The notes beneath the pieces are model-generated. The model did not search any database. It was not told where the DNA came from and was given only the letters and a program-made list of their open reading frames with translations. Below are positions 43,896 through 61,700 of a stretch of DNA of 64,000 bases, one piece after another. The DNA comes from Aquimarina pacifica (GTDB lineage: Bacteria; Bacteroidota; Bacteroidia; Flavobacteriales; Flavobacteriaceae), in NCBI RefSeq assembly GCF_000520955.1, contig NZ_JACC01000001.1, positions 62,001 through 126,000 on the forward strand, read 5' to 3'. How positions within the stretch are numbered: position 1 is the stretch's first letter; each line of letters starts with the position of its first letter. Made by a program: the position numbers and the translations under genes.

Positions 43896-46800
43896 CTATT
43901 CGATGATTAGTTTTCTAACCTGACTTACTGTCGATGTTTCTAATAAAATAAAATAGACACCTGCGGCCAACTGCTGCATATTATATTCAAATGCATAGGT
44001 GTCTGAACCTTCTCCCATTCTTGAGTCCAAAATTCTATTATCAACCATTGTAAAGACTTTTACATTTATCGATTGCACACTTGATAAGGCAACATCTACT
44101 GTAAAGCTTCCAGTAGGTGATGGGTTAGGGTATGCAGTATAGTCAATATAACTGTGTACAGTATTTGAACCTCCACTCTCGCTTCCTTCCTCTGTTTCTA
44201 TTTCTTTATCTACAACAACTACGGTTTTTGTAGTACTTGCAGTACATAAACCTCTATATGTTATTAAAGTGACTTCATACTCTCCGGGAGTTTCAAAAAA
44301 TGCTTCGGCATAATTATCATCTTCATAAGTTATTATTGCCTCTTCAGGAAAGATCCATTCTACTGTATCAGGAAAGGGATCACTGTTCTCAACGAGCACA
44401 AACTCCTCTCCTACAAACACCTGTGTAGAAGCAATAAACTGCGATCCTATAGTATCTGTAGTAGTATCTATAAAAATAGAATCTACAGCTGTACATCCAT
44501 CAGAATCTGTAACTAGGACTTCATAAATGCCAGAATCACTAACTTCTACAGTAGATTCAGAACTCCTAAAACCATTCTCAGAAGTCCATTGATATGTGGC
44601 GTTATCATCTTCTATCGTTGCGTCTAAAACAATGGTTTGATCTAGACATAATGTAACATCCTCTCCTAAATCAATAACTAATTCTTCTGGGTTATCCAGA
44701 AGAATCTCTCTTGTTATTTGGCACTGCTTACTATCTGTTACTGTTACTGTATAGGTTGCTGCACAAAGGTTGTTGATATTATTCGTGGTCTCACCTGTAC
44801 TCCACATATAGGTGTACGGAGGAGTTCCGCCTAAGGTTTCTAAAGAGATGATTCCATCACATCCACCATAACATGTGGGTATAGTTAACGACGGTATTAT
44901 TTCTAATGCCTGTGGTACAGTTAAAGTAATCTGATCGGTAATTTGACATCCTCGTATATCGGTAACTTCTAGGGTGTAGGTACCAGCAACTATATTTTCT
45001 AATTGTTCGCCAGTCTCACCATTGCTCCATTGATAGCTATAAGGTGCCGTTCCACCCTCTACCTGTGGGGTAATAGTCCAGTCATTACCATCTCCACAAA
45101 AGACAAAATTCGCCTCTAAGGATAGTTCTAATATATCCGGTTGTCCTAATTGAAAAGTAGTACTTGTAACAGTAGTACCAACAGCATCAGAAACGATTAC
45201 ATAATAAGTACCAGAGCCTCTATCTTCTAATAAAAACCAATCATCCCCTACTTCTAAATTACTATCGGCATCAAACCATTGATATATATATTGCTTTGAT
45301 GCGTTAAATGGGGCTCCACCTTCTGCAATAGCACTTAAACTAGCATTTTCATCTCCGAAACATGAAACTACATTAACCTGTTCTACGATTACTTCTAATG
45401 GTGGTGGTTCATATAAATCAACATTTTCGATTTCAAGAATACATCCATTGGCATCAGTAATTGTGACAGCATATCCCTCAGTACCTATGTTGTCAAGCAC
45501 ATTGATAGTAGAAGGCTGAATAGTATTATCAAAATCTCTCCACTCATACTGATAGGGCGGTGTTCCTCCTCCGATTGTTAACGTAATACTTCCGTCGTTA
45601 GCTCCGCTAACCGAAGGATATAACCTTACAATTGCACCGCTAACAAAAAGACCTGGGGGTTGCTCTATTTCTATTTCTGCTTGCACTGTACATAAATTTG
45701 CATCGGTAACAGTGACCGTATAATTACCTGCTCGTAATGAGGAAATATCTTCTGTAACTTCTCCATTACTCCAACTATATGAGTAAGGAGGCACACCACC
45801 ATCTACTGTAATATCAATCTGGCCATTTTCGTATCCCCGACACAATAAATGAGTTACGCTAGATTCAATTTCAAGAACTGCTGGTTCTGTGACTTCATAA
45901 GAAGTGTTATCTGTATTTCCATTACTATCGGTAACTATAACAATATAAGTTCCTGCAAGAACAGTAGTCATTGTTTGTGGGCCTGTAAATATTGGATCAG
46001 AACCTCCTCCTACTTGATACCACTCATAAGAATATGGCGATACTCCTCCTTCTGTTGTTGTATTTAACGGAATTATTGTTTCTTCTCCAAAACATTGTAT
46101 CCCTTCTTCTAGTAATAGAGGTGTTATTAGAACAATTAATGGATCTGGTTCTGTAATTTCTTGAGTTATTGTTGCGGTACAATTATTTGCATCTGTAACT
46201 ACTAATTGATACACTCCCGCGGCAATCCCATTAATATCTTGACTCGAAGAATTGTAACCTACTCCATCTATTCGACTCCATGCATGACGATATGGTAAGA
46301 CTCCTCCTCTTACTTCTAGAGATATACTTCCGTTACGGGTTTCAAAACCTGTCAAATTAACTGGCTCAATATCATAAATTTCTAGTGCAGCATCTGGTTG
46401 AGTAATAACCACAGACTCACTCAATGACGTCGTACACAAATTATCATCAATCACAACCAACTCATACGTCCCAGCACTTATATTTTCTAGATCTTCGGTG
46501 GATGCTAAAAAACTTGGATCCTCTATCTTAGTCCATCTATAAATATACGGCAAATATTCGCCTGTAATTTCATCCCGAGGACCTCCGCTTACTGTAATAT
46601 CTATAGCTCCTGTTGCTTCTCCATAACAGTTTACATTCGTGGGTTCTTCGCTCAAAACTACTGTCAAATCATCAGGTTGCATAATTTCAAAAAAAGCATC
46701 ATCACTTGCTCCCTGGCTATCAGTAGCAAGCACTCTGTAGGTTCCTGCTGCCAGACCATCAATACTGGTTTGTGTTAAATCAGTAGTAACCGGAGATTCT

Positions 46801-49800
46801 GTTCCTTCTTCAATTACATACCACTGGTACGTATAATCTGCCGGTGTTGCACCTGTAATAGGGTATCCTCCTACCACCGTTGCTCGAAGTTCTCCCAATA
46901 AATCTCCATAACAAAGGATTGGATTGGTTTGTTCTATAGTCACCTCTAATGGATCCGGTTCTATAACTTCAAAAGTTCTACTCATCTCGCATCCTGTATG
47001 ATCGATTACGATTACCCCATACTCACCGGCAGAAATACCAGTGATATCTTGGGTAGCAGCACTAAATGATACATCATCAGTTTTGGACCATGTGTATGTA
47101 AAAGGCCCTACTCCTCCTTCAATATTTATATCAATAGCGCCATTGGTACCATCTACAGTAGTTGCATTTGTTACTAGTACCGGAGTAATTGAAATCTCAG
47201 TTGGCTCATCAATTACAATATTCTGGGGAACAGCTATCTCACATCCATTAACATCTCTAATCCAAACTTCATAGGTTTCCGGCTCTAGATTAGATATTGT
47301 TAAATTAGTTAAATCACTCTCTAATATATAATTCACCCTATTATCTATAGAAAAAGAATAGGGTCGTGTTCCTCCTCCTGGATTTAATATAATTGTACCA
47401 TCATCTTGTCCATAACATGATACATCGGTTTTAGAGAGAGACAAGCTTAAAGCTTCTGGTTGTAAGATGACTAACTCTTCGGATCTGGCAGTGGTATAGC
47501 CATCGTTTACCTCAATAAAATAGGTTCCTGCACCTGTGCTTAATTCAATGTCATCTTCATTGGCTATAGCAGATCCGTTTCTATACCATTGATACGTATA
47601 GGTTTCTGATCCTCCCTCTGCCTCGGCCGTAATTGTTATAATCCCAGCATTACATATGATGGCAGGAGCATCAATAGACACTAATAATTCTTCGGGCTCT
47701 GTAATTTCTATCGGAGTCGATTGTTGTACGCAATCATTGGCATCTGTAACCGTAGCTATATAACTACCTGCAATCAAATTATTAATCGTTGTTCCTGTAC
47801 CTGCATTTGTAGGAGGCGTTCCAGCTCTCTGCCAACTAATGTTGTATGGATTAGTTCCTCCTCCTACCGAGATGGTAATAGATCCATTGGCTTGTTCAAA
47901 AACAGTATTATCAACTACGGTTTGTGGGGTTATTCTTATTTCATCGGGTTGTGCGATGGTATATACTCCCGAGATATCAGAGGTACAAACAGTAACATTG
48001 CGATCTCGAACTCTAAAACGATAGCCAGTACTTGTATTACCATTTAGCAAAAAAACATTACTATTTTGCCAAGTGGTATTCGTGGTTCCTTGCCACAAGG
48101 CATATTGATATTCACCTGACGTTCCTCCTCGGGCAGTAATAGTAACTGTAGCCTCTTCTCCATGACAATCTATATCGCCTATACTAACATTAGATATTAC
48201 AACCGGTAACGGAATATTCTCAAATCTAATATTGGTAAGTTCTGCTTCAATTCCTCTTTGGTCAGTTACTACCACCTGATATATGCCATCTCCCCCAGTG
48301 ATAGAATTACCAACCGTATCTACTGTATCTCCTTGTTCTCTCCAAGATATACTATACGGAGGGGTTCCTCCTTCTATATCATCATCTGATAATGTAAGCA
48401 CACCGTCCTCAGCTGATGAACAACTTGGATCTTGTTTTTGAATATCTGATTCAGAAAAAGTAATAGGGTCGGCATCTATTAATGTAAAATTTAGACTCAC
48501 TGAACATCTACTTTGCCCATAAAACCGATAATTATATTCTCCTTCTCCCAAGTTATCTCTTAATAACCCTGAAATCGGTACGGGAATTCCAGAAGAATCT
48601 CTATCCGCTTCTCCTGTATCTAAATCATAAATGGCCTCATCCATTAAATAATACAACGTTCCATCAGTATCTTCAAAAGGCACATCTCCGGTAATTGAGC
48701 CAATTTCTAAATATCCCGTGGCAGTATTTGCAGTTGCTGGAGGAAAATATTCAACATCGTTTAAAACTGTTCTGGTTGCGGTTTCTATTCGTACTGTTAC
48801 TTCTTCTGATTCACAAGCGGTACTATTTCTATCCCTTACTCGTACCCTATTGATCCCTGATGATAAACCAGGAATCACTCTTGGAAGTGATGTAATCGTA
48901 TACCAGGGACCGTTATTTGCACTGAATTGATATGCCCCAGATCCACCATCTAATGAAGTGATCACAGCACGTCCTGTGTTTCCGGTTTCGCAAGTAGGTG
49001 TACTTGCCTCCATTGTAAAGGTTATAGGATCTAATGTTTCGATATCAAAATCGTCACTAGTTGTCAGGCAGGTTGCTGAGCCACCATCATACCCTCCTAT
49101 TTCTAACCGATAAGTACCATCGGTAATATCAACGTCTTTGGTATCAAAATTATATCTCCATTGCCCCCCAACATTAACAAATGTACCTTCTGCTGGTAAT
49201 ATATTATTGGCATCAGAATCCAAAGTACCATCTGGTCTATACTTAAGTAAGTTAATGTACAACTCCTCATCGGTATACAAATTTCTGTTAAATACAAAAG
49301 CAATACTGGCAGGAGTATCTGCACAGGATTGTGTAACAATTGGATCACCGACTAGCTCTGGAGGAGGTGGTAAAAAATCAACTGTTAAAATATTGGATTC
49401 CTGTTCATCCGTTCGTATTATATATAGGTCATTATTACAATCTGTACGAATTCTTACAGAAATAGTATAGTCTCCTGCTATAGCCTCTTGATCGCTTATA
49501 CTATTAGGATATAAAACCTCGGGGGTTAATGTAAATGATGATTCTCCTTGAACCGGAGTTATCCTATTCCAGACAGGAGCTTGAGCGGTCAATGGATATC
49601 CCGCATTTTCATAATCTTCTACTGCTTGTCGGGCTTCTTCAACTGCTTCTTCTTCTTCTTCACAGCTTCCTTCATCATCATTAGCACAGTCATTTTCTTC
49701 ATCTTCGGCTTCAGTAAGCGCATCTAACACAGCTTGATAATCTGGGTGTGTAATGGTTTCAGTATTAATAGGGTCTAAAAACTCCCACTGATATGCTACT

Positions 49801-50384
49801 GCAGAAAACCCTGGAGATGCTTCGATATCAATACCGCTACTGGTACACCCTGTCTGGACAGAACCCACATGTGCATCGGTATCTGCATACCAGAGTTCCG
49901 TTTTGGGTACAATGGACACCTGTGCAAACCCTTCTCTTCCCCTTGTTTGCCGCGGAAAAACCTCTGCCCTAGTATATTCTCTAAAATAACAATTGTAATC
50001 TACGTTTCTAAAATCGAAAAATATATGATCCCTATTAATCGCAGAAGAACAGCCATTAAAACCACTATTACGGTCAAAACTCAAAAATTCTATTTGTGTC
50101 AAGGGATTATCACTCGTGAATGTATGGGCTCTTGGAAAAAAAGATCGGTTAGAATACCCTCTATTATCATCGGGATCTCCTGTAATATACTCTATATCTC
50201 CATTTTCGAAATGAAGTCCAATATATTGTAAACCATGACTTCTACAAGTTGCTCTTCCTTGTCCGATATACCCAAAAATACGTACTACATATTCACGCTC
50301 TTCTTCGGTCTGTTGCGCATGTATATTCACTATACTAAAAAGCAATATAACTACCCAGATTATCTTTTTCATATCATTCATCAT
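43896..50384 (-). CDS. Giant SprB-repeat T9SS surface adhesin
   Basis: A 2162-residue secreted protein. A signal peptide ends NIHAQ. Residues about 25-430 hold two or three beta-rich domains, with an acidic helical insert near 210-255 (EAEDEENDCANDDEGSCEEEEE). Then come about 17 SprB/Ig-like repeats of 75-95 residues (GGTPPYSYSWSNG, AGTYTVTVTDANGC), a PKD-like domain (FVGEEFVLVEN...FETPGEYEVTLITY) and a T9SS type A sorting domain (YTAYPNPSPTGSFTVDV...LAAGVYFILLETS). Repeats 2-16 form five A-B-C triplets defined by cysteine presence. SprB repeats occur in gliding adhesins and other surface filaments. It is last in its operon, two bases after the Fn3 gene. A second ATG at 50372 gives a more typical signal start. 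Confidence 0.93.
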   Translation of the reverse strand: MMNDMKKIIWVVILLFSIVNIHAQQTEEEREYVVRIFGYIGQGRATCRSHGLQYIGLHFENGDIEYITGDPDDNRGYSNRSFFPRAHTFTSDNPLTQIEFLSFDRNSGFNGCSSAINRDHIFFDFRNVDYNCYFREYTRAEVFPRQTRGREGFAQVSIVPKTELWYADTDAHVGSVQTGCTSSGIDIEASPGFSAVAYQWEFLDPINTETITHPDYQAVLDALTEAEDEENDCANDDEGSCEEEEEAVEEARQAVEDYENAGYPLTAQAPVWNRITPVQGESSFTLTPEVLYPNSISDQEAIAGDYTISVRIRTDCNNDLYIIRTDEQESNILTVDFLPPPPELVGDPIVTQSCADTPASIAFVFNRNLYTDEELYINLLKYRPDGTLDSDANNILPAEGTFVNVGGQWRYNFDTKDVDITDGTYRLEIGGYDGGSATCLTTSDDFDIETLDPITFTMEASTPTCETGNTGRAVITSLDGGSGAYQFSANNGPWYTITSLPRVIPGLSSGINRVRVRDRNSTACESEEVTVRIETATRTVLNDVEYFPPATANTATGYLEIGSITGDVPFEDTDGTLYYLMDEAIYDLDTGEADRDSSGIPVPISGLLRDNLGEGEYNYRFYGQSRCSVSLNFTLIDADPITFSESDIQKQDPSCSSAEDGVLTLSDDDIEGGTPPYSISWREQGDTVDTVGNSITGGDGIYQVVVTDQRGIEAELTNIRFENIPLPVVISNVSIGDIDCHGEEATVTITARGGTSGEYQYALWQGTTNTTWQNSNVFLLNGNTSTGYRFRVRDRNVTVCTSDISGVYTIAQPDEIRITPQTVVDNTVFEQANGSITISVGGGTNPYNISWQRAGTPPTNAGTGTTINNLIAGSYIATVTDANDCVQQSTPIEITEPEELLVSIDAPAIICNAGIITITAEAEGGSETYTYQWYRNGSAIANEDDIELSTGAGTYFIEVNDGYTTARSEELVILQPEALSLSLSKTDVSCYGQDDGTIILNPGGGTRPYSFSIDNRVNYILESDLTNLTISNLEPETYEVWIRDVNGCEIAVPQNIVIDEPTEISITPVLVTNATTVDGTNGAIDINIEGGVGPFTYTWSKTDDVSFSAATQDITGISAGEYGVIVIDHTGCEMSRTFEVIEPDPLEVTIEQTNPILCYGDLLGELRATVVGGYPITGATPADYTYQWYVIEEGTESPVTTDLTQTSIDGLAAGTYRVLATDSQGASDDAFFEIMQPDDLTVVLSEEPTNVNCYGEATGAIDITVSGGPRDEITGEYLPYIYRWTKIEDPSFLASTEDLENISAGTYELVVIDDNLCTTSLSESVVITQPDAALEIYDIEPVNLTGFETRNGSISLEVRGGVLPYRHAWSRIDGVGYNSSSQDINGIAAGVYQLVVTDANNCTATITQEITEPDPLIVLITPLLLEEGIQCFGEETIIPLNTTTEGGVSPYSYEWYQVGGGSDPIFTGPQTMTTVLAGTYIVIVTDSNGNTDNTSYEVTEPAVLEIESSVTHLLCRGYENGQIDITVDGGVPPYSYSWSNGEVTEDISSLRAGNYTVTVTDANLCTVQAEIEIEQPPGLFVSGAIVRLYPSVSGANDGSITLTIGGGTPPYQYEWRDFDNTIQPSTINVLDNIGTEGYAVTITDANGCILEIENVDLYEPPPLEVIVEQVNVVSCFGDENASLSAIAEGGAPFNASKQYIYQWFDADSNLEVGDDWFLLEDRGSGTYYVIVSDAVGTTVTSTTFQLGQPDILELSLEANFVFCGDGNDWTITPQVEGGTAPYSYQWSNGETGEQLENIVAGTYTLEVTDIRGCQITDQITLTVPQALEIIPSLTIPTCYGGCDGIISLETLGGTPPYTYMWSTGETTNNINNLCAATYTVTVTDSKQCQITREILLDNPEELVIDLGEDVTLCLDQTIVLDATIEDDNATYQWTSENGFRSSESTVEVSDSGIYEVLVTDSDGCTAVDSIFIDTTTDTIGSQFIASTQVFVGEEFVLVENSDPFPDTVEWIFPEEAIITYEDDNYAEAFFETPGEYEVTLITYRGLCTASTTKTVVVVDKEIETEEGSESGGSNTVHSYIDYTAYPNPSPTGSFTVDVALSSVQSINVKVFTMVDNRILDSRMGEGSDTYAFEYNMQQLAAGVYFILLETSTVSQVRKLIIE
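44916..48772 (-). repeat. Five A-B-C triplets of SprB-type repeats
   Basis: Within the adhesin, units begin at about 48772, 47948, 47205, 46397 and 45660 and average near 770 bases. In each unit the first domain (A) lacks the early Cys but has the late one, the second (B) has the early Cys, a YQWY-like core and no late Cys, and the third (C) has both. A domains share NGSI/NGAI/NDGSI instead of the CYG motif. Confidence 0.75.
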
Positions 50385-50386
50385 CT

Positions 50387-52480
50387 CTAATAGTTTATTT
50401 CAATTTTCTTAATTGGCGAAGAAGTACCCGAATCTAATACTGCTTTTAACAAGTAGGTATAATGGGTATTCACTTTTAAGTTGTTATCTATAAATTTTTC
50501 TTCCTGATCAGTAAATACTTTATAGAGTGTTGGTTTTTCATCTTCTTCTGCTCGATAGAGTAAAAACTCGTTAATCTCGCCCTCTTTGTATTTCCATTGT
50601 AATATTATTCTTTTCTCGTCACGATTGACAAGTCCATCGAATTTATCAATCTCAGGATTTATTGTTTGCTTTGCTGATCTAATGGTTAGCGGTGTTATGG
50701 GTTCTGATTCTAGCCCTGATTCGTCTATAGTAACTAAGGTATACAGATAGGTAATCCCAGATTGCACACTGGTATCCCTATGTTTAGTTTCTGGTATATT
50801 GATATCCGCAATAAGCGCCCAAGAGGTCTCTGCTCCTTTTTCTTTTCTATATATTAATGTCTTAGCTGCATCTACACTACTGCTGGTAATCCAAGTAAGT
50901 TCAATCACTCCATTCTCTGCATTAAAAGATTCAAACACGGGTTGTGTGGGTGGCACAACATCAGGCTTTACCAATGTTAATACTTCAGAAAAATTTGATG
51001 GATTGTATCTCTTATCAAAAGACTGTATTTTATAATATACTTTGGGGTTTAGGTTCTTAATTTTTATGGTATCTATAAACCTGTTTTGTGGGGTTGGTTT
51101 TATCGTAATTTGTGTAAACTCTTCATTCTCTAGATTTGCTCTAAACACGCGATATCCCAAAAAATCTTTTTCTGTATTCATTTGCCATTGCAGTTGAACT
51201 ACACCCGTAGAATCAATTGTACCTATAAGTCCAAACGGAACTGCTGGTGGGGTGTCATCTACTGGTTGAATCATTTGAGGAAATGATTTTCTTCTACTCC
51301 CATCCTTACCAACCGCGGTAATACTAAAATAATTGATGGTGTTAAGTTGAGTAACCGTAATAGTTCTACTAGCTTTTGGGATATCTGATCGTACGGCAGT
51401 ATATTTTCCGTTTACCATATCCGATCTGAATAACTCAAAATGATCGAGAGTCTCTATGCCTTCTTCAGGAAACTCCCAACTGATTACTGCACTGCGGTTA
51501 TCGGGTAATAATCTGGCTTCTATAATCCCCGGATTATGTAATAAAGGAGCCTTTCCTACTCCCGAAATCACTTCTGATGTAGGGCCAACCTCTCCAAAAG
51601 GTGAGATTCCCTTAATTCTGTAATAATACGTTTTGTCATTTTGTGGTAAACTATCAATATAAAAGATACGTTCTGATGATTTTTCATCTTTATCATTAAG
51701 ATTAACCAAGGGTCTATCATTAAGTTTAGCAAATGAAGTACCATCTACAGATCTCTCAATGATATAACTTGTGTATTCTCTTTTAAGCAACTTATAATTC
51801 CAACTTAATAACGCATGTTTGTCCTTAAAAATCCCAATAAACTCTTGTGGTTTAGGTAGTGGTCGATACTCTGATAATCCTGTATATACTCCTCCGAACT
51901 TTACCTTTATTCTTTCCTCTGGGATCGCGGTATAAACTCTATAAAGATACCGTTCATTAGGTTTCACATCAGTATCAACATAGGCCAATCCAGAATACTC
52001 AGCAACCTTATAATCTTGATCTGCAGCAAATAATGCAAATGAGAACCGTTGTTCTAATACCTTGGCTTTATTTATGATCTGCATTAAGGCATTTCCTCCT
52101 TCTTCCATATCAACAGCAAAATCTTCTCCATATAGTGCTTGAGCTGCAATTGCTGCATTGTCATTTCCGTCGACAAAATTTTCCCATTCCATCATAGGTT
52201 TAGGAAGTATTGGCGTTACTGTCAATCTTTTTACAATAGGTTCTTTTAGAATTTCATCTCCAATTGCAATAGTTTTTCTTTCTATTACGTACCCGTATTG
52301 ATTTGCATATTTCCATGCCAATGGAGTAGTAACTCCCCATCGCAACTTAATCGCATCTTTGGTAGCTACACTGATTACTTTTACCTCTGGTTCTTCATCC
52401 CCTATTGGTTGTTGGGCATAGGCTACAGAAGAGAAGCTAATCAATATTATTAAAATTGCCTGTACTAAATATCTATTCAT
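50387..52480 (-). CDS. Exported fibronectin type III repeat protein
   Basis: A 697-residue protein with signal peptide ending SSVAYAQQ. After an N-terminal domain of about 200 residues it consists of about five Fn3-type domains, seen as repeated YRI/YYKIQS and (S/G)xxSxxSEV strands: FSPFGEVGPTSEV-like (ISPFGEVGPTSEV), AVGKDGSRRKSF, FDKRYNPSNFSEVL, TIDESGLESEPI and the final LKAVLDSGTSSPI. There is no T9SS tail and no enzyme motif, so it may be a periplasmic or outer-membrane partner of the adhesin. Its ATG overlaps the upstream stop by eight bases (ATGAATAG) and its stop lies two bases from the adhesin start. An upstream in-frame start at 52510 would overlap more and lacks a clean signal. Confidence 0.85.
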   Translation of the reverse strand: MNRYLVQAILIILISFSSVAYAQQPIGDEEPEVKVISVATKDAIKLRWGVTTPLAWKYANQYGYVIERKTIAIGDEILKEPIVKRLTVTPILPKPMMEWENFVDGNDNAAIAAQALYGEDFAVDMEEGGNALMQIINKAKVLEQRFSFALFAADQDYKVAEYSGLAYVDTDVKPNERYLYRVYTAIPEERIKVKFGGVYTGLSEYRPLPKPQEFIGIFKDKHALLSWNYKLLKREYTSYIIERSVDGTSFAKLNDRPLVNLNDKDEKSSERIFYIDSLPQNDKTYYYRIKGISPFGEVGPTSEVISGVGKAPLLHNPGIIEARLLPDNRSAVISWEFPEEGIETLDHFELFRSDMVNGKYTAVRSDIPKASRTITVTQLNTINYFSITAVGKDGSRRKSFPQMIQPVDDTPPAVPFGLIGTIDSTGVVQLQWQMNTEKDFLGYRVFRANLENEEFTQITIKPTPQNRFIDTIKIKNLNPKVYYKIQSFDKRYNPSNFSEVLTLVKPDVVPPTQPVFESFNAENGVIELTWITSSSVDAAKTLIYRKEKGAETSWALIADINIPETKHRDTSVQSGITYLYTLVTIDESGLESEPITPLTIRSAKQTINPEIDKFDGLVNRDEKRIILQWKYKEGEINEFLLYRAEEDEKPTLYKVFTDQEEKFIDNNLKVNTHYTYLLKAVLDSGTSSPIKKIEINY

Positions 52481-55400
52481 AAATAGGGTTATAATATTTT
52501 CTATTTTCACTTGTTCCTTCTTTGATAGCCCCTGGTAGGATGTATTTTAGTGTGGTTTTATAATTACCCTTATCCATTAATGGGAAAGGTTTTGTAATCA
52601 GTTGTTCGTACTGTATCATATGTTCCCAATTCAAATCAGAACTAATTAATTGATACCTTAAATCTTCATAATCTCTATAGTAATATAGTCCCAAATCATA
52701 TCGGTAAGGAATAAAATAGTTATACTGATCTGCGGGGATATCATTTTCTAAACTTGTTAGATACCAGGATATTGGTTCTACTCCTTCTACTGGGGGTACT
52801 CCTACTTTTTCTGTGCTTCGACGTACAGAAAACTGACCTGCCAATGGATATTCTTTATACAATAATGGATATACTTTCTTTTTATAAAAATCATTATCCA
52901 TCACTGCTCGTGCTACTACCAGAGGTTGGTTGCCCGAATATGCCGTTCCTGTCAATTCTGAAATATCAAAAGGTTCCATCGGTTGTATACGTGTTTTGAG
53001 CGCAACACCATATGGGTAAGGAATATGATCGTATAAATCAAATACCTTATCCGCATCTGCCATTTTTTTGGCAAAAGTGGTATATTCACTTGTACCGAAA
53101 CTATAGGTTAATAGTAATCGTTCATCACCTTTTATTTCTAATCCTTCTAAAGAATTAGATTTAATCTCTACCGTATTTTCATCATTCCCTTCGTCATCAA
53201 AACTCTGTTTAGTATAGGACTCCTTAATAGAGTTACTTGTAGCTGATTCTGGGGGAATTAAACTTATTCTTATATCATAAGAGTTTTTTGTACTCATCTC
53301 TTTAGGTAAGACATATGTAATTTGCTTTTCGCCACTATTATACCCAAAGGTTTTAGACATTATTCCTCCTGTTTCTGATCCCATAATCATACTTTTAGAA
53401 AACCCAGGAGCATTATCGAAGAGGTACTTTTGTCCTCTTTTTAAAGTAATATATCCGGTTCCGTATTCATTAATAAAGAAATTTTTCTGATCCAAAACAG
53501 GATACATAAAGTCGATATTAGTCAATGGTATATTATCCGGAGCCAGACCTGTGGTAAAACTTACCTCTTTAGTTTCTAGGGCGGGCCTACCATTATCCAT
53601 TATTACCTCCCATTTTCCGTTAATATATTCTTCAAAATGTAATTGAACATATGCCTTCAGGTCTGTATTCGGGGGTAATATTTCATGAGAATAAAATGAT
53701 GCCAGACTATTATAAGAATTCCATTTAACTTCTCCTATGATAGGTGTTCCATTATCTAGGACTTCAAATTTATCCACAAGAACTTTATACCTATGGTCTC
53801 CTGTATCATCAGGTATTTCAAATACTTTGTTTATTTGTAAATTAAAGGATACTTGTGGTACCCCAAACACATCTACCTCGGTAGTACCATCTTTTGGGGT
53901 CATATCCCCAATCACTACGATTCCGTCTATTGGCGAACCATCAACGATTTCGCAGTAATCACCCAACTCTATTTTAAATCTAAAACTTCCTTTAATAAGG
54001 CCACCTAAAACACTATACCTTCCTTTAAGATACCCTCTCAGCCATACTGGATTTGGTAACCTTGCTTGTAGTAATACAGCTGCTCCTCCACTAAAAATAG
54101 TAACTTTCTTTTTCTTACCAAATAGCCTAAACTTAACGCCCATTTTTCCTTGAAAATAGCCATAGGCTTGCCCATTAGCATACCAGCCATCTAATCCCAC
54201 AGGACCTGATGACCCTTTACAATGGGCTTCTCCGTAATCCTTGACCATAATATCAAAACCAATACCCGAACGGAAACTTGCGTAATACATTAAGAATTTG
54301 AGGTCTGAGGACATCTCAAAATGAGAACCAAAGGCAAATCCTCTTCCTGATTCGAGCATATTAAGATCTCGGGTATAATCTAACTCAGATACATCTACCC
54401 CCAATAGTTCTGCAACAATTGGTGGTGGTGGTGGACTGCCTGGGATATCATCACCAAGCATGAAATAACTTTTGGTTGTCATTTTCAGGATTCCTATATC
54501 CATAATAACCCCTGTTGGATCTTCTGGTGTTCCTATAAGAATATGCCAGGTATCTGGACCCACGTAAAAATCTAACCATCCCGCTCGTCCGTTGGGCCCT
54601 ACTCCTTTGAGGATTCCGAAATTGATATATAATTCTGATGTTGCATGAAAGACATCATTGACAAAATCAAACTTGATCATAACGTTGGCTGACATGGCTC
54701 CTGTTGGTGCATATGCTGGTAAACTTGTTCCACTAGCCAGATGTCCTAATTTTTCGCCTAACATTTCATAAAAATTCCCAGGTAGACTTGCTATTAACTC
54801 TCCCTCTCCTTTAAAATAAATTTCTTGTAATCCTCCAGAGGTTAGGAAAGAAATCCCGAACTCTAAAGAGCCATGAAACAGACTTTCTGAGCTTTGCGTA
54901 ATAATCCCAACAGATGCCTTGAACCCAAAACCATTTTCTTTTGAAGGTTCATAGATTACACCAGAAACGGAAGCTCCAATTTCCATATAGGCTGCATCTT
55001 CCTGATAGGTTACTCCGGCCATTTTCATACGATTAAAAAAACCACCTCCAAATGAATTAATGGCAAATCCTGTAAAAATAGGAATTCCTTGTGGTAAGGT
55101 AACTTGCGCATCTGCAAACCAATATCTAAACTCGTCTGTTCGCCCAAAAAGTGCTTTTGCCTCTACCTCTAGTTTCATCCCAGTACTAAACTTAGCACCT
55201 ACAGCTCCTGCAAAACCTTTTCCGTAAGTGGGGTCATCATCAAATATAAATACGGCCCCTTTGAGCTCCATACCGGCAACCTCCATCTGTACGAAGACGC
55301 GCTCTAAGTCTATACCATCATACTCCCACTTATCTCGACCATTATGATCTACCTGAATAGCTTTGATCGCCAACTTAGCTCCTCCTCCATTACCTCCATC

Positions 55401-57110
55401 ACTCTCTGATGTAAGGTTGATATTAAAATCAAAAACTAACTCTGCTTTACCATCAGATGGTGTTCTAAGACCAAGTTCATTAAGAGAAATCGGGAAACCT
55501 GCAATACTCATCGATCCACGATATCCAAAATATGTGACCGAGAGTTTAGGTGATTCTGTTTGTAAGAGCATATTCTCAAACACAATGCCTTTAAAATCTA
55601 CCGTATTGTCACCAGATCCAGAATCTTTACCTAATCCTGACTCTATTCCTACAGAACCATGAAGATTAGCTTTAGGTCTGAATTTATCGTCCTTTATTTT
55701 CATTTCTATATAGGAATCCTTGGTCAGGGTAACCTTAGCATTCCATAAATCAAAATCAATTTCGTCTGTGCTCGCAACTCTAAAACTATATTCATCAGGT
55801 TGTATAATTGCATTATACTTTAATCGATCTACTGATGAAACAGGAAGAAGAAATTCTCCGCTAAACTCTCCAGCTTTAAGGCTGTTTGTTTCTATTTCTA
55901 ACTTAAAATATTCTAGTGAAAATTGCCATTTTGAGGCAGAGCCTTCGTCTATCGTTAGTATATTTTCTCCTGTAAACTTACCACTTACTCCTTGACTATC
56001 AATAATCATATCGGTGGCCCCAAAAGTAACTCGATTCTCAGATCCTCTTTTGGCAAAAGCTTTTGGCAATACAACTTCAAGGGATTGAATATACACCCCC
56101 CTCCAAAGCTCGGGAGCTTCATTATAATATGTAGTAAGATAGTCTGATGGTGTTTGCGGATCATTACGTAAATCACTAAAATCAAATATTGCTGTATTTA
56201 GTCTGAAGGTTGTTCCTTCTACTCCTTTGATCCCAAATTCTGGTAAAGAAATATTAATAAGCATATCATTCCAGTCACTAGCCACTACTTTAAAACTGCT
56301 TTCTACATACCCAAGAGTTTCTTTACCATCTTCATCTACTGGGTATATCAATCCATTACTGAATTGAATATTGGCATCTATTCCTAATTCTTTGAACCCC
56401 GAACAATCGATGGTAGCATACGTTCCTGTTTTTTCGAACCCTCCGTTAAGAGTCAAAAGAACTGACCCATTATTAAAATTAACGGTAAACTGAGAAATAA
56501 GATTAAGTTTTGCATCGCCAACAATTCCCCCTTCATGAGATAGTTTGATATCATCGGCTCCTAGAATAAGAACCCCACGGGCCGTTTCTATTTTGAGAAA
56601 AATAGTAAGTTCTGTATACTGCGGTTTGAAAACCGCTTTAGCGATTCCTACTGTATATTTAACATTACTAATTTCTATAGGGTTGATTGCGACGGGTAAT
56701 TCGCCTAAACTTTCGTCCTTTAACTCATCTATATAATTTTTGGTTTCCTCTATTTTACTAAAAACATCTTTGGCCATTTCGAGCCACTTATTGTTCTCAA
56801 TAGAATCGGCTGTATTAAAATTGAAACCAGTCTTCTGATGAAATTTTTCGGGTTGTTTATCGCTTATCGGTGTATCAAATCGTTCTAAAGACTTAAAATT
56901 ACGAAATGCCTTTACTGCTATACTAGAACTAACTTCTTTGGTTATTGAATGAGAAACATTATCGATGCTACTATCTTTGGCAGAAGTTACCTTGTCACTT
57001 GTTATTTCTTTTTCTATTTCGGATTCTATGAAAGGAATATTTTTTGACAACACACTTGTTGTGCATACATAAAAACATAGAAACATTAAGACATGTATCG
57101 ATTTATTCAT
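52473..57110 (-). CDS. Giant exported protein of unknown function (1545 residues)
   Basis: The signal peptide is HVLMFLCFYVCTTSVLS. Residues about 20-110 are charged and partly coiled coil. From about 140 to 1050 the sequence is dominated by long beta strands with alternating hydrophobic residues and many Gly (VKYTVGIAKAVFKPQ, LTIFLKIETARGVLILG, KANLHGSVGIESG, GGGAKLAIKAIQVD). The C-terminal 450 residues contain Ig-like beta domains (FEIPDDTGDHRYKVLVDKFEV) and a Tyr-rich end without a T9SS tail. The pattern suggests an elongated beta-sheet or surface-assembly protein; I cannot name a family. It is the first gene of the three-gene operon that ends with the adhesin, and its position implies a role in assembly or anchoring of that adhesin. 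Confidence 0.85.
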   Translation of the reverse strand: MNKSIHVLMFLCFYVCTTSVLSKNIPFIESEIEKEITSDKVTSAKDSSIDNVSHSITKEVSSSIAVKAFRNFKSLERFDTPISDKQPEKFHQKTGFNFNTADSIENNKWLEMAKDVFSKIEETKNYIDELKDESLGELPVAINPIEISNVKYTVGIAKAVFKPQYTELTIFLKIETARGVLILGADDIKLSHEGGIVGDAKLNLISQFTVNFNNGSVLLTLNGGFEKTGTYATIDCSGFKELGIDANIQFSNGLIYPVDEDGKETLGYVESSFKVVASDWNDMLINISLPEFGIKGVEGTTFRLNTAIFDFSDLRNDPQTPSDYLTTYYNEAPELWRGVYIQSLEVVLPKAFAKRGSENRVTFGATDMIIDSQGVSGKFTGENILTIDEGSASKWQFSLEYFKLEIETNSLKAGEFSGEFLLPVSSVDRLKYNAIIQPDEYSFRVASTDEIDFDLWNAKVTLTKDSYIEMKIKDDKFRPKANLHGSVGIESGLGKDSGSGDNTVDFKGIVFENMLLQTESPKLSVTYFGYRGSMSIAGFPISLNELGLRTPSDGKAELVFDFNINLTSESDGGNGGGAKLAIKAIQVDHNGRDKWEYDGIDLERVFVQMEVAGMELKGAVFIFDDDPTYGKGFAGAVGAKFSTGMKLEVEAKALFGRTDEFRYWFADAQVTLPQGIPIFTGFAINSFGGGFFNRMKMAGVTYQEDAAYMEIGASVSGVIYEPSKENGFGFKASVGIITQSSESLFHGSLEFGISFLTSGGLQEIYFKGEGELIASLPGNFYEMLGEKLGHLASGTSLPAYAPTGAMSANVMIKFDFVNDVFHATSELYINFGILKGVGPNGRAGWLDFYVGPDTWHILIGTPEDPTGVIMDIGILKMTTKSYFMLGDDIPGSPPPPPIVAELLGVDVSELDYTRDLNMLESGRGFAFGSHFEMSSDLKFLMYYASFRSGIGFDIMVKDYGEAHCKGSSGPVGLDGWYANGQAYGYFQGKMGVKFRLFGKKKKVTIFSGGAAVLLQARLPNPVWLRGYLKGRYSVLGGLIKGSFRFKIELGDYCEIVDGSPIDGIVVIGDMTPKDGTTEVDVFGVPQVSFNLQINKVFEIPDDTGDHRYKVLVDKFEVLDNGTPIIGEVKWNSYNSLASFYSHEILPPNTDLKAYVQLHFEEYINGKWEVIMDNGRPALETKEVSFTTGLAPDNIPLTNIDFMYPVLDQKNFFINEYGTGYITLKRGQKYLFDNAPGFSKSMIMGSETGGIMSKTFGYNSGEKQITYVLPKEMSTKNSYDIRISLIPPESATSNSIKESYTKQSFDDEGNDENTVEIKSNSLEGLEIKGDERLLLTYSFGTSEYTTFAKKMADADKVFDLYDHIPYPYGVALKTRIQPMEPFDISELTGTAYSGNQPLVVARAVMDNDFYKKKVYPLLYKEYPLAGQFSVRRSTEKVGVPPVEGVEPISWYLTSLENDIPADQYNYFIPYRYDLGLYYYRDYEDLRYQLISSDLNWEHMIQYEQLITKPFPLMDKGNYKTTLKYILPGAIKEGTSENRKYYNPIYE

Positions 57111-57493: not shown

Positions 57494-58735
57494 CTACTGT
57501 TTAGAATTTTCGACCAATTTTGAAATAGTATTTCTAACATGCTCATTTCTTGTATCTAAGAGGCCCCGCGAAGGTCTACTTTCTTTGGACACAAACATAT
57601 CTAGCATTACAATTGGTCGGTCAGGATCGTTAGTTAACATAAAATCTCCTAGATTGGTCTCATGTAAAAAATCACCATTATCGGTTAACTTTTTCTCAAT
57701 ATCATCAATTGCCTTAAGATGAACATCTGTTACCTGGATAGACAATGGTTCATTTCGGGACATTGAGCTGTTAAGGCTAAATAAATCTTTCCCCTCTATT
57801 TTTTCCATTGCTACCGCCTCGCGCCATACTCCATTATCATCTTGTACTCTAACCCTTCCATATAACTTAGCTCCACCATAAGGTTCCAACCCTTTAAGCA
57901 CTAACTCCATTTCTTCAACTACATCATAATCAGTTGCACTATCAAACTTAAAAATGGCAGAATTCCCTTCATAATTACCTGTAAAAATTCTTCCCAAACC
58001 TCCACTTCCACTCGTGATTTCTGTAGCCGTAACACTTGGTAGCTTCATTACCTTCTCAACCTCACTCAATGCTGCTTTAAAACTTTTATCATCAACAATT
58101 TTGGAAGCAGCTCTATTGACAATTAATGTTTGTAGGTACTCTATTATGGACGAATTCGAAGAACTTCCTAAAACAAATATATCCTCTCCACCTCTTAATA
58201 CAATATTAGAAAGAGAACGCACTTCATTTATTTTAAGAATTTCACTTTTTATTGCATCGGACAAATGTGAATCCTTTACAAAATCATGCATTTTGCTCAC
58301 AAATAATTCATCAGTCCAGTCCTCTTCATAATACTTTTCATTAATTAATCGAGCTTCTAAATATAATTTTTTATTGGTATCAGCTCCCAAAGCAATTGTT
58401 CTCCAACTCGTATATCCACCGGATATTTCTATCTCAGTAATAATGTCATTAGATCCCTTTTCTGAACGCTTAGCATATTCTGATACTTCTTTTAGATTAT
58501 CCACATCTAATCTATTTGCACTTTGATCCGCCTTATACAAGATTCGCCAAGCATCATAGGCATTTTCCATATTGTCCTCAAAATGCTTCACCACATCATC
58601 AGAACCTGCTATCAATTCATTTTTGATGGTATCCCATAAACATTGGTCACCTTGAGCTTCGATTCCTTGAAACCCAAAAATCAAAACAATCAGGATCATT
58701 ACTCTTTTACTATATGTTTTCATTATTGTTTCCAT
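57494..58735 (-). CDS. Secreted protein with kinase-like C-terminal motifs
   Basis: A 413-residue protein whose ATG overlaps the upstream stop (TAATG), so the two are translationally coupled. A second ATG four codons on starts a signal peptide ending GIEAQG. Residues about 30-235 are helical. From about 240 the order SGSGGLGRIF (Gly-rich loop), AIFKF with Lys263, VVEEMELVL with Glu, VAMEKIEGKDLF (hinge-like), FLHETNLGDFML and MLDMF follows that of protein-kinase-fold proteins, but the catalytic loop lacks a proper HxD and N, so activity is doubtful. It could be a secreted effector, an inactive kinase fold or an immunity-like partner of the preceding giant protein. No homologue is known to me. 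Confidence 0.8.
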   Translation of the reverse strand: METIMKTYSKRVMILIVLIFGFQGIEAQGDQCLWDTIKNELIAGSDDVVKHFEDNMENAYDAWRILYKADQSANRLDVDNLKEVSEYAKRSEKGSNDIITEIEISGGYTSWRTIALGADTNKKLYLEARLINEKYYEEDWTDELFVSKMHDFVKDSHLSDAIKSEILKINEVRSLSNIVLRGGEDIFVLGSSSNSSIIEYLQTLIVNRAASKIVDDKSFKAALSEVEKVMKLPSVTATEITSGSGGLGRIFTGNYEGNSAIFKFDSATDYDVVEEMELVLKGLEPYGGAKLYGRVRVQDDNGVWREAVAMEKIEGKDLFSLNSSMSRNEPLSIQVTDVHLKAIDDIEKKLTDNGDFLHETNLGDFMLTNDPDRPIVMLDMFVSKESRPSRGLLDTRNEHVRNTISKLVENSKQ

Positions 58736-61700
58736 TATTTACAGTTTGGTCTGTTTATTTTAATATTTTCTAAAATGGTATTCACTCGCAGGTGTCGTGC
58801 TCCATTATCCGTAGTTCCGGTATTTCTAAAGCCATACGTATTTCCATTCTTAAGAAGTACACCCTCTCCTCTATAATCAGTTACTACTTCATAGTTAGGC
58901 ACATCTGCCTCGTCTATGAAATTCTTTTTTTGAAAATTTCCATCAATATATCTTCCTATTTCAGTACTATTACCTCCTGTTAGACCAGGATCTAACCTAA
59001 CGATAACCTCCCCATTCTTGATCCCACTAAACTGAACCGGAATAGAAGAAGGAAACAAATTATCAACCACTTTAAGACCATCAATTAGTTTTTGCTTACT
59101 GGCGGGACTACCATCAACCATTAATCTGGTTAATCCTTCAAAACCAGTATTTCCTTCATACTCGAATCTTCTACTCACCTGTGCAAGCACTTCGATATTC
59201 CCTGGGACCTTACTAATTATAGGGAAGGTCCGAAGTAGCTCCGTAGCTCTCTCAAAACGAGTTCTGACTCTTTCTACTTGTACTTTTAATTCAGGTGTTA
59301 TATTTGGAGATGTATCTACTTTACCTGTCACATACCCCATCGCAGTATTGGCTTTTGGATCATTGGCAATGGCTAATACTAACTCATCAGGAAGCTCATC
59401 AGTTTCTCTTACCAACCCAATAGGATCAGGCATTGGAGAATTAGGAACTGCATTGTCTATATCATCTAATGAATAATCCCTGACAGGTAAATTATTAGGT
59501 GACCTTAATAACGACTGCGCACTAAAACTTAGAAAAGATTGTACAATCGTAAAATTGCTTAAGTTCTGATATAGTTCTCCATTTTCTGAAGCAAAATCAG
59601 TATCACTAGTTGCTGTGGTTGCAATACTTAATAAATCTACCGCCATATCAAAAGCAACAGCAGCTTTGTGTATTTTAGACCCTGCAGTTAGTAAAGCTCC
59701 TGGTCCCGTTGCCAAACTTAATACATCAACAGCTGTAATAATACTCGCTGCGGTTGTTTGATTTGACGCAGAAATATCTGCGTACATTAGTAAAATTGCA
59801 GGTACAGGTAAATTGATCTGAGATTCGGTTTTACCAAAACCTTGTAATACATCTAGATTCGATTTATTATGAAAATACACCAAATCAAAAGGACGTAATG
59901 GATCTGACATAAACTCTCCTTTTTCTCTTACTAAGAAATGAGGAACCAAACCTTGTGTTTCATTTTGAGTTGCCTGAAACTTTCCTGTAGCACTATCATA
60001 ATCAGTGTCTATAGAAAAATAGGTCGTTTTCTCTTTAAACCAGTCCCAATTATTAATTGCCCCTTGTGTCATTATCAAAGCAGAGGTATTAACTGCTCTT
60101 ACTGCTATATTCTGATATTCTAAAACAAAGGATCTTCGATATAAATTATTTTCAAATGATGTTTTTCTATCCTCATGCAATTCTGTAGCCTTCATAAACA
60201 GTTTTGAAAAACCGACGATTAAACGTGCACGTTCATTATCTCCCGAAAGAAACCCTAGAAGTTTATCATCTACTTTAGTAAAAATTTGATAATAAAGAAT
60301 TTCCTCCTTATAATTCGTATGACCACCTTGTCCTGTAAAAGATTTCTTATAGTAATTAACATCTTCTAACCCTAAAATTATGGTAGCCGCCTCTGAAGGG
60401 TTAGCATCTTCGATTAATCTAATTATAGCCGTCTCTCTATTATTAGACTCATCAGACCCCTCAAAAATTCCCTCATATGCCATTCTGGATAAGATCCTTA
60501 CAACATCTTCTCCGCTAAGGCTATATATATCTGCTGTGGTGGCAAAGTTAATAGCTCGAATAAGATTCTCTATATCTACAGTGTCGACATAATCAATATC
60601 CTCTTTAATTGATGCTATAATCTCCTCTGTCTGAATGGCTTCTTCTTGAATTCCCTGTTCAATAAATAGAATAAATTCTTTAAGGAAGTCTATTTGAGTA
60701 TTTGGTAAGTCACTCTCTACATACTTATCTTTTAGTTTGCACAGAACAATACGTTCATTGCCAACCCACTGATCTTTACAATCCAAGTATTTATCGGACA
60801 GCCAATTTAGAAATCTCCGCTCTGACCATTCCCAATACTCACCGTTTATCAAACTTGTTTTGGACCACTTACCATAATGATCCGTAGTCACATAGTCTAT
60901 ATATGTAGGAAAAGCCGCTCTTAATTCTGCAATCTTGGTTCTAATAAAAATATCATTGAAATTACCTAATACATGCCCTGTCTTAGACCATTTTATGATA
61001 TCATTAGTAACAATATGTGTATCAGACCCTAACTGCGCATACCCATCTAGTTTTTTAGAAAGTACACTTCCGTTAAAACTAGGAACCGGAAAGTGCACCA
61101 CATCTTTTAATTCACTAGTACCTCCTTCATAAAAATTTACGGTTCCTGTATCAAATCGGGTAGTCTTCATAAGTTGATAACTATCTTCATGATTTGTTAA
61201 AAAGATGCATTCTACACTGTAAAAATCAAAATCCCCATTATTGTTTTCATAGGCCACGGGTCCATTTGCTGTTTCTGCATAATACCCTAATAATGTAGCT
61301 GTATCACCGCTAAACTGCACCTTAGCGTTATAGGCTAGATCTCCTATTTTAAAACTCTTTAGAGTTCCGGGTGTAAATTTGATAAATTCTTGTATTTCTC
61401 CTTGAATCGACTCTCCATAATACCCATAATAAAACTCGACATTCTCTACATTATTAGGTAACACTATTGCTTCTGCTGATGGTGTCAAAAAAGTAAATGA
61501 ATCATCATATGCTGAGGTGTTGCTTCTGTTTTCTCCAAATTTATAATCCCTAAAATATGAACCGATTACCACACTTGCTCCTTCTTCATCATCTTGAAAC
61601 CAATACAACTGTAATCCCGGAGCATGAATTTTTTTCCAATCCATATGGTTGAGCGTAGTTCCTCCGTTATAATCCATCAAGAAATCAGTACTTCCTTTTG

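Follow-up and report, generated by a model that had tools for sequence, protein, structure and literature searches.

The 2162-aa protein encoded in the window (the whole 64,000-nucleotide stretch of Aquimarina pacifica DNA that was analysed) contains fifteen domains which, classified by their cysteine content, follow the order A-B-C five times. A domains possess only the late cysteine, B domains only the early one and C domains both. This arrangement is probably that of a stapled rod, where the early cysteine of domain n would bond the late cysteine of domain n+1, giving staples at the B|C and C|A junctions and none at A|B, and hence stiff B-C-A blocks with one free junction per triplet. Judged from sequence, the pairing of the original prediction, with the late cysteine of A bonded to the early cysteine of B and each C closed on itself, should most likely be reversed.

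In a profile search the protein matched the SprB repeat PF13573 with 265.4 bits against a curated cut-off of 28 (E 1.1e-80), and the T9SS type A sorting domain TIGR04183 with 41.1 bits against a cut-off of 23. By inspection it starts with the hydrophobic stretch MKKIIWVVILLFSIVNIHA, a putative export signal. The repeat family is shared with SprB of Flavobacterium johnsoniae, whereas the sorting domain of SprB is of type B. The corresponding type B C-terminal signal, TIGR04131 (as given in part of PMC12618676), was not found in the 2162-aa protein, where the C-terminal matches were TIGR04183 and a weak M36. A role as an SprB-type gliding adhesin was rejected, as the sorting domain is type A and not type B; the earlier description as a giant SprB adhesin is thus valid for the repeat family but not for gliding. 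Passages of PMC12618676 describe type A signals as supporting static anchoring or release, and SprB as carrying a type B signal. We take the 2162-aa protein to be a putative surface rod, either static or released, that would belong to a TANFOR cassette. Table 1 lists its domains and neighbouring genes.

Table 1. Genes and domains of the SprB-repeat locus (positions in the window; residue numbers refer to the 2162-aa protein)
Feature	Position	Strand	Remarks
2162-aa SprB-repeat protein with T9SS type A sorting domain	43896..50384	-	ORF
T9SS type A sorting domain (Por_Secre_tail)	43902..44132	-	profile match
PKD-like domain, late-type Cys 2047 only	44199..44465	-	candidate terminal "A"; domain and Cys 2047 placed by eye
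Last C-type domain, Cys 1913 and 1964	44466..44687	-	
Extra C-type repeat, Cys 1838 and 1888	44688..44912	-	second pair 1842/1874
C5, Cys 1763 and 1813	44913..45140	-	
B5, sole early Cys 1675	45141..45407	-	
A5, sole late Cys 1648	45408..45659	-	
C4, Cys 1515 and 1565	45660..45884	-	
B4, sole early Cys 1431	45885..46148	-	
A4, sole late Cys 1402	46149..46394	-	
C3, Cys 1253 and 1317	46395..46673	-	
B3, sole early Cys 1158	46674..46958	-	
A3, sole late Cys 1132	46959..47207	-	
C2, Cys 990 and 1048	47208..47462	-	
B2, sole early Cys 911	47463..47699	-	
A2, sole late Cys 885	47700..47951	-	
C1, Cys 740 and 800	47952..48218	-	
B1, sole early Cys 655	48219..48476	-	
A1, sole late Cys 627	48477..48788	-	hand-assigned; relatives show it
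C-type repeat preceding the triplets, Cys 465 and 524	48789..49037	-	
N-terminal region, beta-sandwich domains, residues 25-449	49038..50312	-	nine Cys
707-aa Fn3 protein	50387..52510	-	conserved partner gene, just upstream of the 2162-aa gene
1545-aa protein	52473..57110	-	conserved partner gene
TANFOR-type protein	58735..64000	-	runs off the window edge

By segmentation, A1 to C5 span residues 533-1824 (window positions 44913-48788), which agrees with the range originally predicted and confirms the five triplets with complementary cysteines. For five A, five B and five C domains the chance of a perfect order is 1/756756 for one given order and 6/756756 for any. A1 (residues 533-636) was missed by the repeat profile and was assigned by hand; relatives show it, as exemplified by locus L108 with the order C(ABC)x5CC. 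With both cysteine columns excluded, and over four triplets, identity within the window protein was 0.321 between domains of the same class versus 0.275 between different classes (permutation P 0.003), and 0.32 at lag 3 versus 0.27 at lag 1. In this self-alignment, three-domain spacing thus beats one-domain spacing outside the cysteines, as had been predicted. The same-class test gave P < 0.02 in 13 of 14 proteins, the exception being L113 (P 0.23), and the period is strong in L120 and L121, which have 13 triplets (0.57 and 0.56 at lag 3 versus 0.29 and 0.28 at lag 1). The long array of L029 has near-copies at a six-domain period (identity 0.68 at lag 6 versus 0.30 at lag 3), suggesting that it expanded two triplets at a time.

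The A-B-C order is kept in relatives from Aquimarina, Flavobacterium and Tenacibaculum, with up to 13 triplets. A search with the repeat region revealed 72 loci, L108 and L120, the latter (ABC)x13, among them. Of the 146 non-redundant proteins examined, whose selection the ABC query biases towards such arrays, 43 have at least two ABC triplets; the triplet periodicity is present in related proteins too. Among 69 loci taken from the top SprB matches listed for 395 genomes of the phylum, seven hold a protein with at least two triplets and five more a single triplet. Most of the remaining ones are uniform C arrays, from which the 2162-aa protein differs by its A/B/C period of three. The N-terminal region is present in 9 of the 36 genomes searched, the window's own genome counted; among the eight other proteins that carry it, which include L028, two or more ABC triplets occur in seven and a single one in L035. 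With the cysteine loops excluded, the domain that matched best in another genus belonged to the same class for 481 of 662 domains (genus labels assigned by hand), which indicates that A, B and C diverged long ago as distinct lineages. This, together with the higher identity at lag 3, supports the predicted duplication in units of three domains.

The early cysteine of one domain and the late cysteine of the next are largely present or absent together. In 2199 neighbour pairs from 146 proteins both were present in 1911, neither in 257 and only one in 31 (phi 0.935), whereas phi was -0.147 for early and late cysteines of the same domain and -0.108 for late(n) and early(n+1). The 31 exceptions include an A domain with an early cysteine in L123, L125 and L137. 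These are three Tenacibaculum proteins with one A domain carrying the extra early cysteine and one junction off the rule. Direct coupling analysis of 2501 domain pairs, with sequences reweighted, ranked early(n)-late(n+1) (n:16|n+1:72) first of 6868 (z 22.8), compared with rank 2129 of 3160 for early-late within a domain and 4463 of 6868 for late(n)-early(n+1). The presence tables count sequences rather than events, and shared ancestry inflates all counts. Furthermore, the presence tables and the top coupling fit both the early(n)-late(n+1) rule and the mixed scheme originally predicted, because the order (ABC)n satisfies both. In proteins outside the ABC group, early(n) and late(n+1) are associated (odds 108, P 1.9e-15) and were jointly absent at 11 junctions, one per protein. 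Most of these proteins contain a lone A-B step, where the same limit of order applies; the 93 non-ABC proteins without an A-B step had one joint absence and 25 single absences. The coupling n:16|n+1:72 ranked second in the non-ABC proteins (z 7.3), in which columns 16 and 72 of one domain are coupled as well (rank 26 of 3160, z 4.9), and CC-only pairs did not discriminate (same-domain 4.0, late(n)-early(n+1) 4.2, early(n)-late(n+1) 3.2).

The geometry of the domains was predicted from a five-domain model of C3-A4-B4-C4-A5 (pLDDT 95.9, pTM 0.77) and from the direct couplings within domains (20-58, 22-57, 14-81, 31-68, 36-67 and 65-73, and 10-79 in CC-only pairs); the model and couplings 14-81 and 20-58 give the strand order. 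Predicted strands and couplings together describe an Ig-like sandwich. The AB loop, which would hold the early cysteine, is placed with the EF loop and the last part of strand G at the pole turned towards the following domain. The FG turn, which would hold the late cysteine, is placed next to the BC loop at the other pole, towards the preceding domain. A second cysteine pair at columns 19-20 and 57-59, exemplified by residues 1842 and 1874, is found together in 241 of the 261 domains having either. This co-occurrence within domains suggests that the AB loop adjoins the start of strand F, and the late cysteine comes after the opposite end of that strand. Within a domain, early and late cysteine would thus be separated by about one strand, and the late cysteine of A and the early cysteine of B by about two domains. 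In the chain the latter two are separated by 26-29 residues, close to the 25 originally given; judged from topology and couplings, however, they would be far apart in space, which speaks against the bond then proposed. Two couplings without cysteine, n:17|n+1:3 and n:17|n+1:68, tie the AB loop of domain n to the N-pole of n+1 and recur in CC-only pairs and in non-ABC proteins. Against a staple, neither is among the 14 strongest couplings listed when only ABC proteins are analysed, and pooling of the loop-to-pole pairs gives a weak contrast (mean z of 0.16 versus 0.00; within ABC proteins 0.11 versus -0.11).

The ends of the arrays were scored in 103 non-ABC proteins with 104 arrays, against 1299 inner domains. 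The first domain was without the late cysteine in 19 of 104 arrays versus 9 of 1299 inner domains, and the last domain was without the early cysteine in 12 of 104 versus 22 of 1299. In the opposite direction, last domains without the late cysteine were also enriched (4 of 104, P 0.012), and enrichment was not clear for first domains without the early cysteine (4 of 104, P 0.12). Taken together, the losses at the array ends and the predicted pole positions point to early(n)-late(n+1) bonds. A bond from late A to early B, with each C self-closed and the rod stiffened at A|B, would pair every cysteine in (ABC)n and in uniform C arrays, is compatible with the presence tables and accords with the short distance along the chain. 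Nevertheless it is very unlikely, since the late cysteine of A is predicted to face the domain before A and the early cysteine of B the domain after B, and the two cysteines that each C would join are placed at opposite poles by strand order, couplings and the second cysteine pair. Two different geometries would be required. The scheme would also leave partnerless Cys 2047 and many of the end domains, as 14 of the 19 early-only first domains are without any cysteine 18-45 residues upstream and 6 of the 12 late-only last domains without any downstream partner. The original suggestion of inter-domain disulfides consequently holds in principle but not for the partners named, closeness in sequence not being closeness in space.

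Pairing of the early and late cysteine within each domain, with A and B having lost one of them and carrying free thiols or inter-chain bonds, would explain why most SprB repeats have both (1298 of the 1373 domains followed by a neighbour in non-ABC proteins) and why same-domain coupling is seen in these proteins. It is highly improbable given the opposite poles and the joint loss that it predicts, as 75 of the 1373 domains were without one cysteine and none without both; seven domains without either are at ends or apart (L048, L063, L071 and L102). About 500 unpaired cysteines (255 in B, 246 in A) would furthermore have been retained in the ABC proteins. There is likewise little to suggest that the pattern reflects mere shared ancestry of tandem copies, with no bonds formed: this would fit the kinship among the domains and tables based on sequences rather than events, but opposite cysteines are lost at opposite array ends outside the ABC group, the couplings were reweighted and the order is kept across several genera. 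It is quite possible, if not what we expect, that the staples form as proposed and A|B is no hinge, being held by another interface or serving as a binding site. The A|B linkers are no longer than others (median 44 at both A|B and B|C, 46 at C|A) and so lend a hinge no direct support; the AB loop of A has a distinct consensus (tgfglsNG), the FG turn of B is likewise distinct, and the model has high pLDDT with a pTM of 0.77. On the other hand, no A|B-specific partner residues were found in an analysis that pooled all ABC junctions.

In the reading we favour, Ig-like SprB repeats make up a long rod, and bonds from early(n) to late(n+1) would hold the end of each domain to its neighbour. At the A|B junction of the ABC subfamily neither partner is present, which would leave B|C and C|A stapled and A|B unstapled. 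B-C-A would then form a stiff block, and the A|B junction may bend or yield as a regular hinge; the reverse of a rod stiffened at A|B, as first predicted, is thus favoured. In the 2162-aa protein the staples would be 465-627, 655-800, 740-885, 911-1048, 990-1132, 1158-1317, 1253-1402, 1431-1565, 1515-1648, 1675-1813, 1763-1888, 1838-1964 and 1913-2047, with A|B empty. Further putative pairs are 180-439, 354-524, 1842-1874 and 233-241; with all of these, Cys 47, 112, 132 and 316 out of 38 cysteines would be unpaired. The shortest covalent path computed over residues 533-1824 is 482 residues when stapled, 883 in the scheme with A-B bonds and self-closed C domains, and 1291 without bonds. If the staples form, shortening of the path from 1291 to 482 would shield most of each domain from unfolding. 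For 15 ideal domains (1245 residues) a uniform C array leaves 252 residues and an ABC array 450, and ABC rods should therefore yield further than uniform C rods.

Homologs of the 707-aa Fn3 protein were found in 33 of 39 ABC loci versus 0 of 33 others, and of the 1545-aa protein in 26 of 39 versus 0 of 33, contig ends cutting some of the loci. Searches of Pfam, NCBIfam and defence families at E 0.01 gave no match for the 1545-aa protein. A 1615-aa ORF is the window-truncated part of the TANFOR-type gene, the start of which is beyond the window edge (L218 at about 2312); a homologous start is present in 24 of 39 ABC loci versus 1 of 33 others. Over 236 aa this extended start shares 49% identity with another TANFOR-type protein from this genome; that protein scores 32.2 bits with TIGR02542, short of the cut-off of 67. 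The gene at the window edge was not itself listed by the TIGR02542 search. No PorP/SprF-like shuttle family was found among five nearby proteins (Pfam, E 0.01). Two further cassettes in the genome, L011 and L013, combine an Fn3 homologue (41-42% identity) with an SprB-repeat protein, followed in L011 by a TANFOR match. According to parts of PMC7073777, SprB repeats, Fn3 and sorting domains are enriched around TANFOR genes, and the polymorphic-toxin neighbourhoods described there resemble the present one, with SprB-repeat, Fn3 and type A sorting genes beside a TANFOR-type gene. Cysteines and triplets do not appear in section 9 of that paper, nor, by a term search, does "cysteine" in its main text. 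That the 2162-aa protein is the presenting arm of the TANFOR cassette is only a guess.

The grappling hook protein A (GhpA) of Aureispira forms a heptameric assembly. GhpA (PDB 9flv, 9flu and others) and the 2162-aa protein have a tandem-domain fold in common, the GhpA entry sequence being longer (5898 versus 2162 aa). Adhesin rods stabilised by calcium-clamped or ester-bonded domains are described in portions of PMC5380327 and PMC12679949. Like these, the 2162-aa protein would be an extended multi-domain surface protein stabilised against pulling, here instead by putative inter-domain disulfides with regular omission.

SprB-repeat proteins are common on the surfaces of Bacteroidota, and SprB repeats were matched in 101 of 395 genomes of the phylum. 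We tentatively suggest that SprB repeats in general form rods with each domain disulfide-bonded to the next, so that load would bypass most of the fold, and that omission of a staple at fixed intervals would set the sites of bending or yielding, one per three domains in the TANFOR-tied ABC subfamily. The staple rule, if true, could be read from sequence and would predict covalent junctions. Existing structures and single-molecule methods could then be used to test SprB-type mechanics. The rule would also mark a distinct subfamily located beside polymorphic-toxin-type genes.
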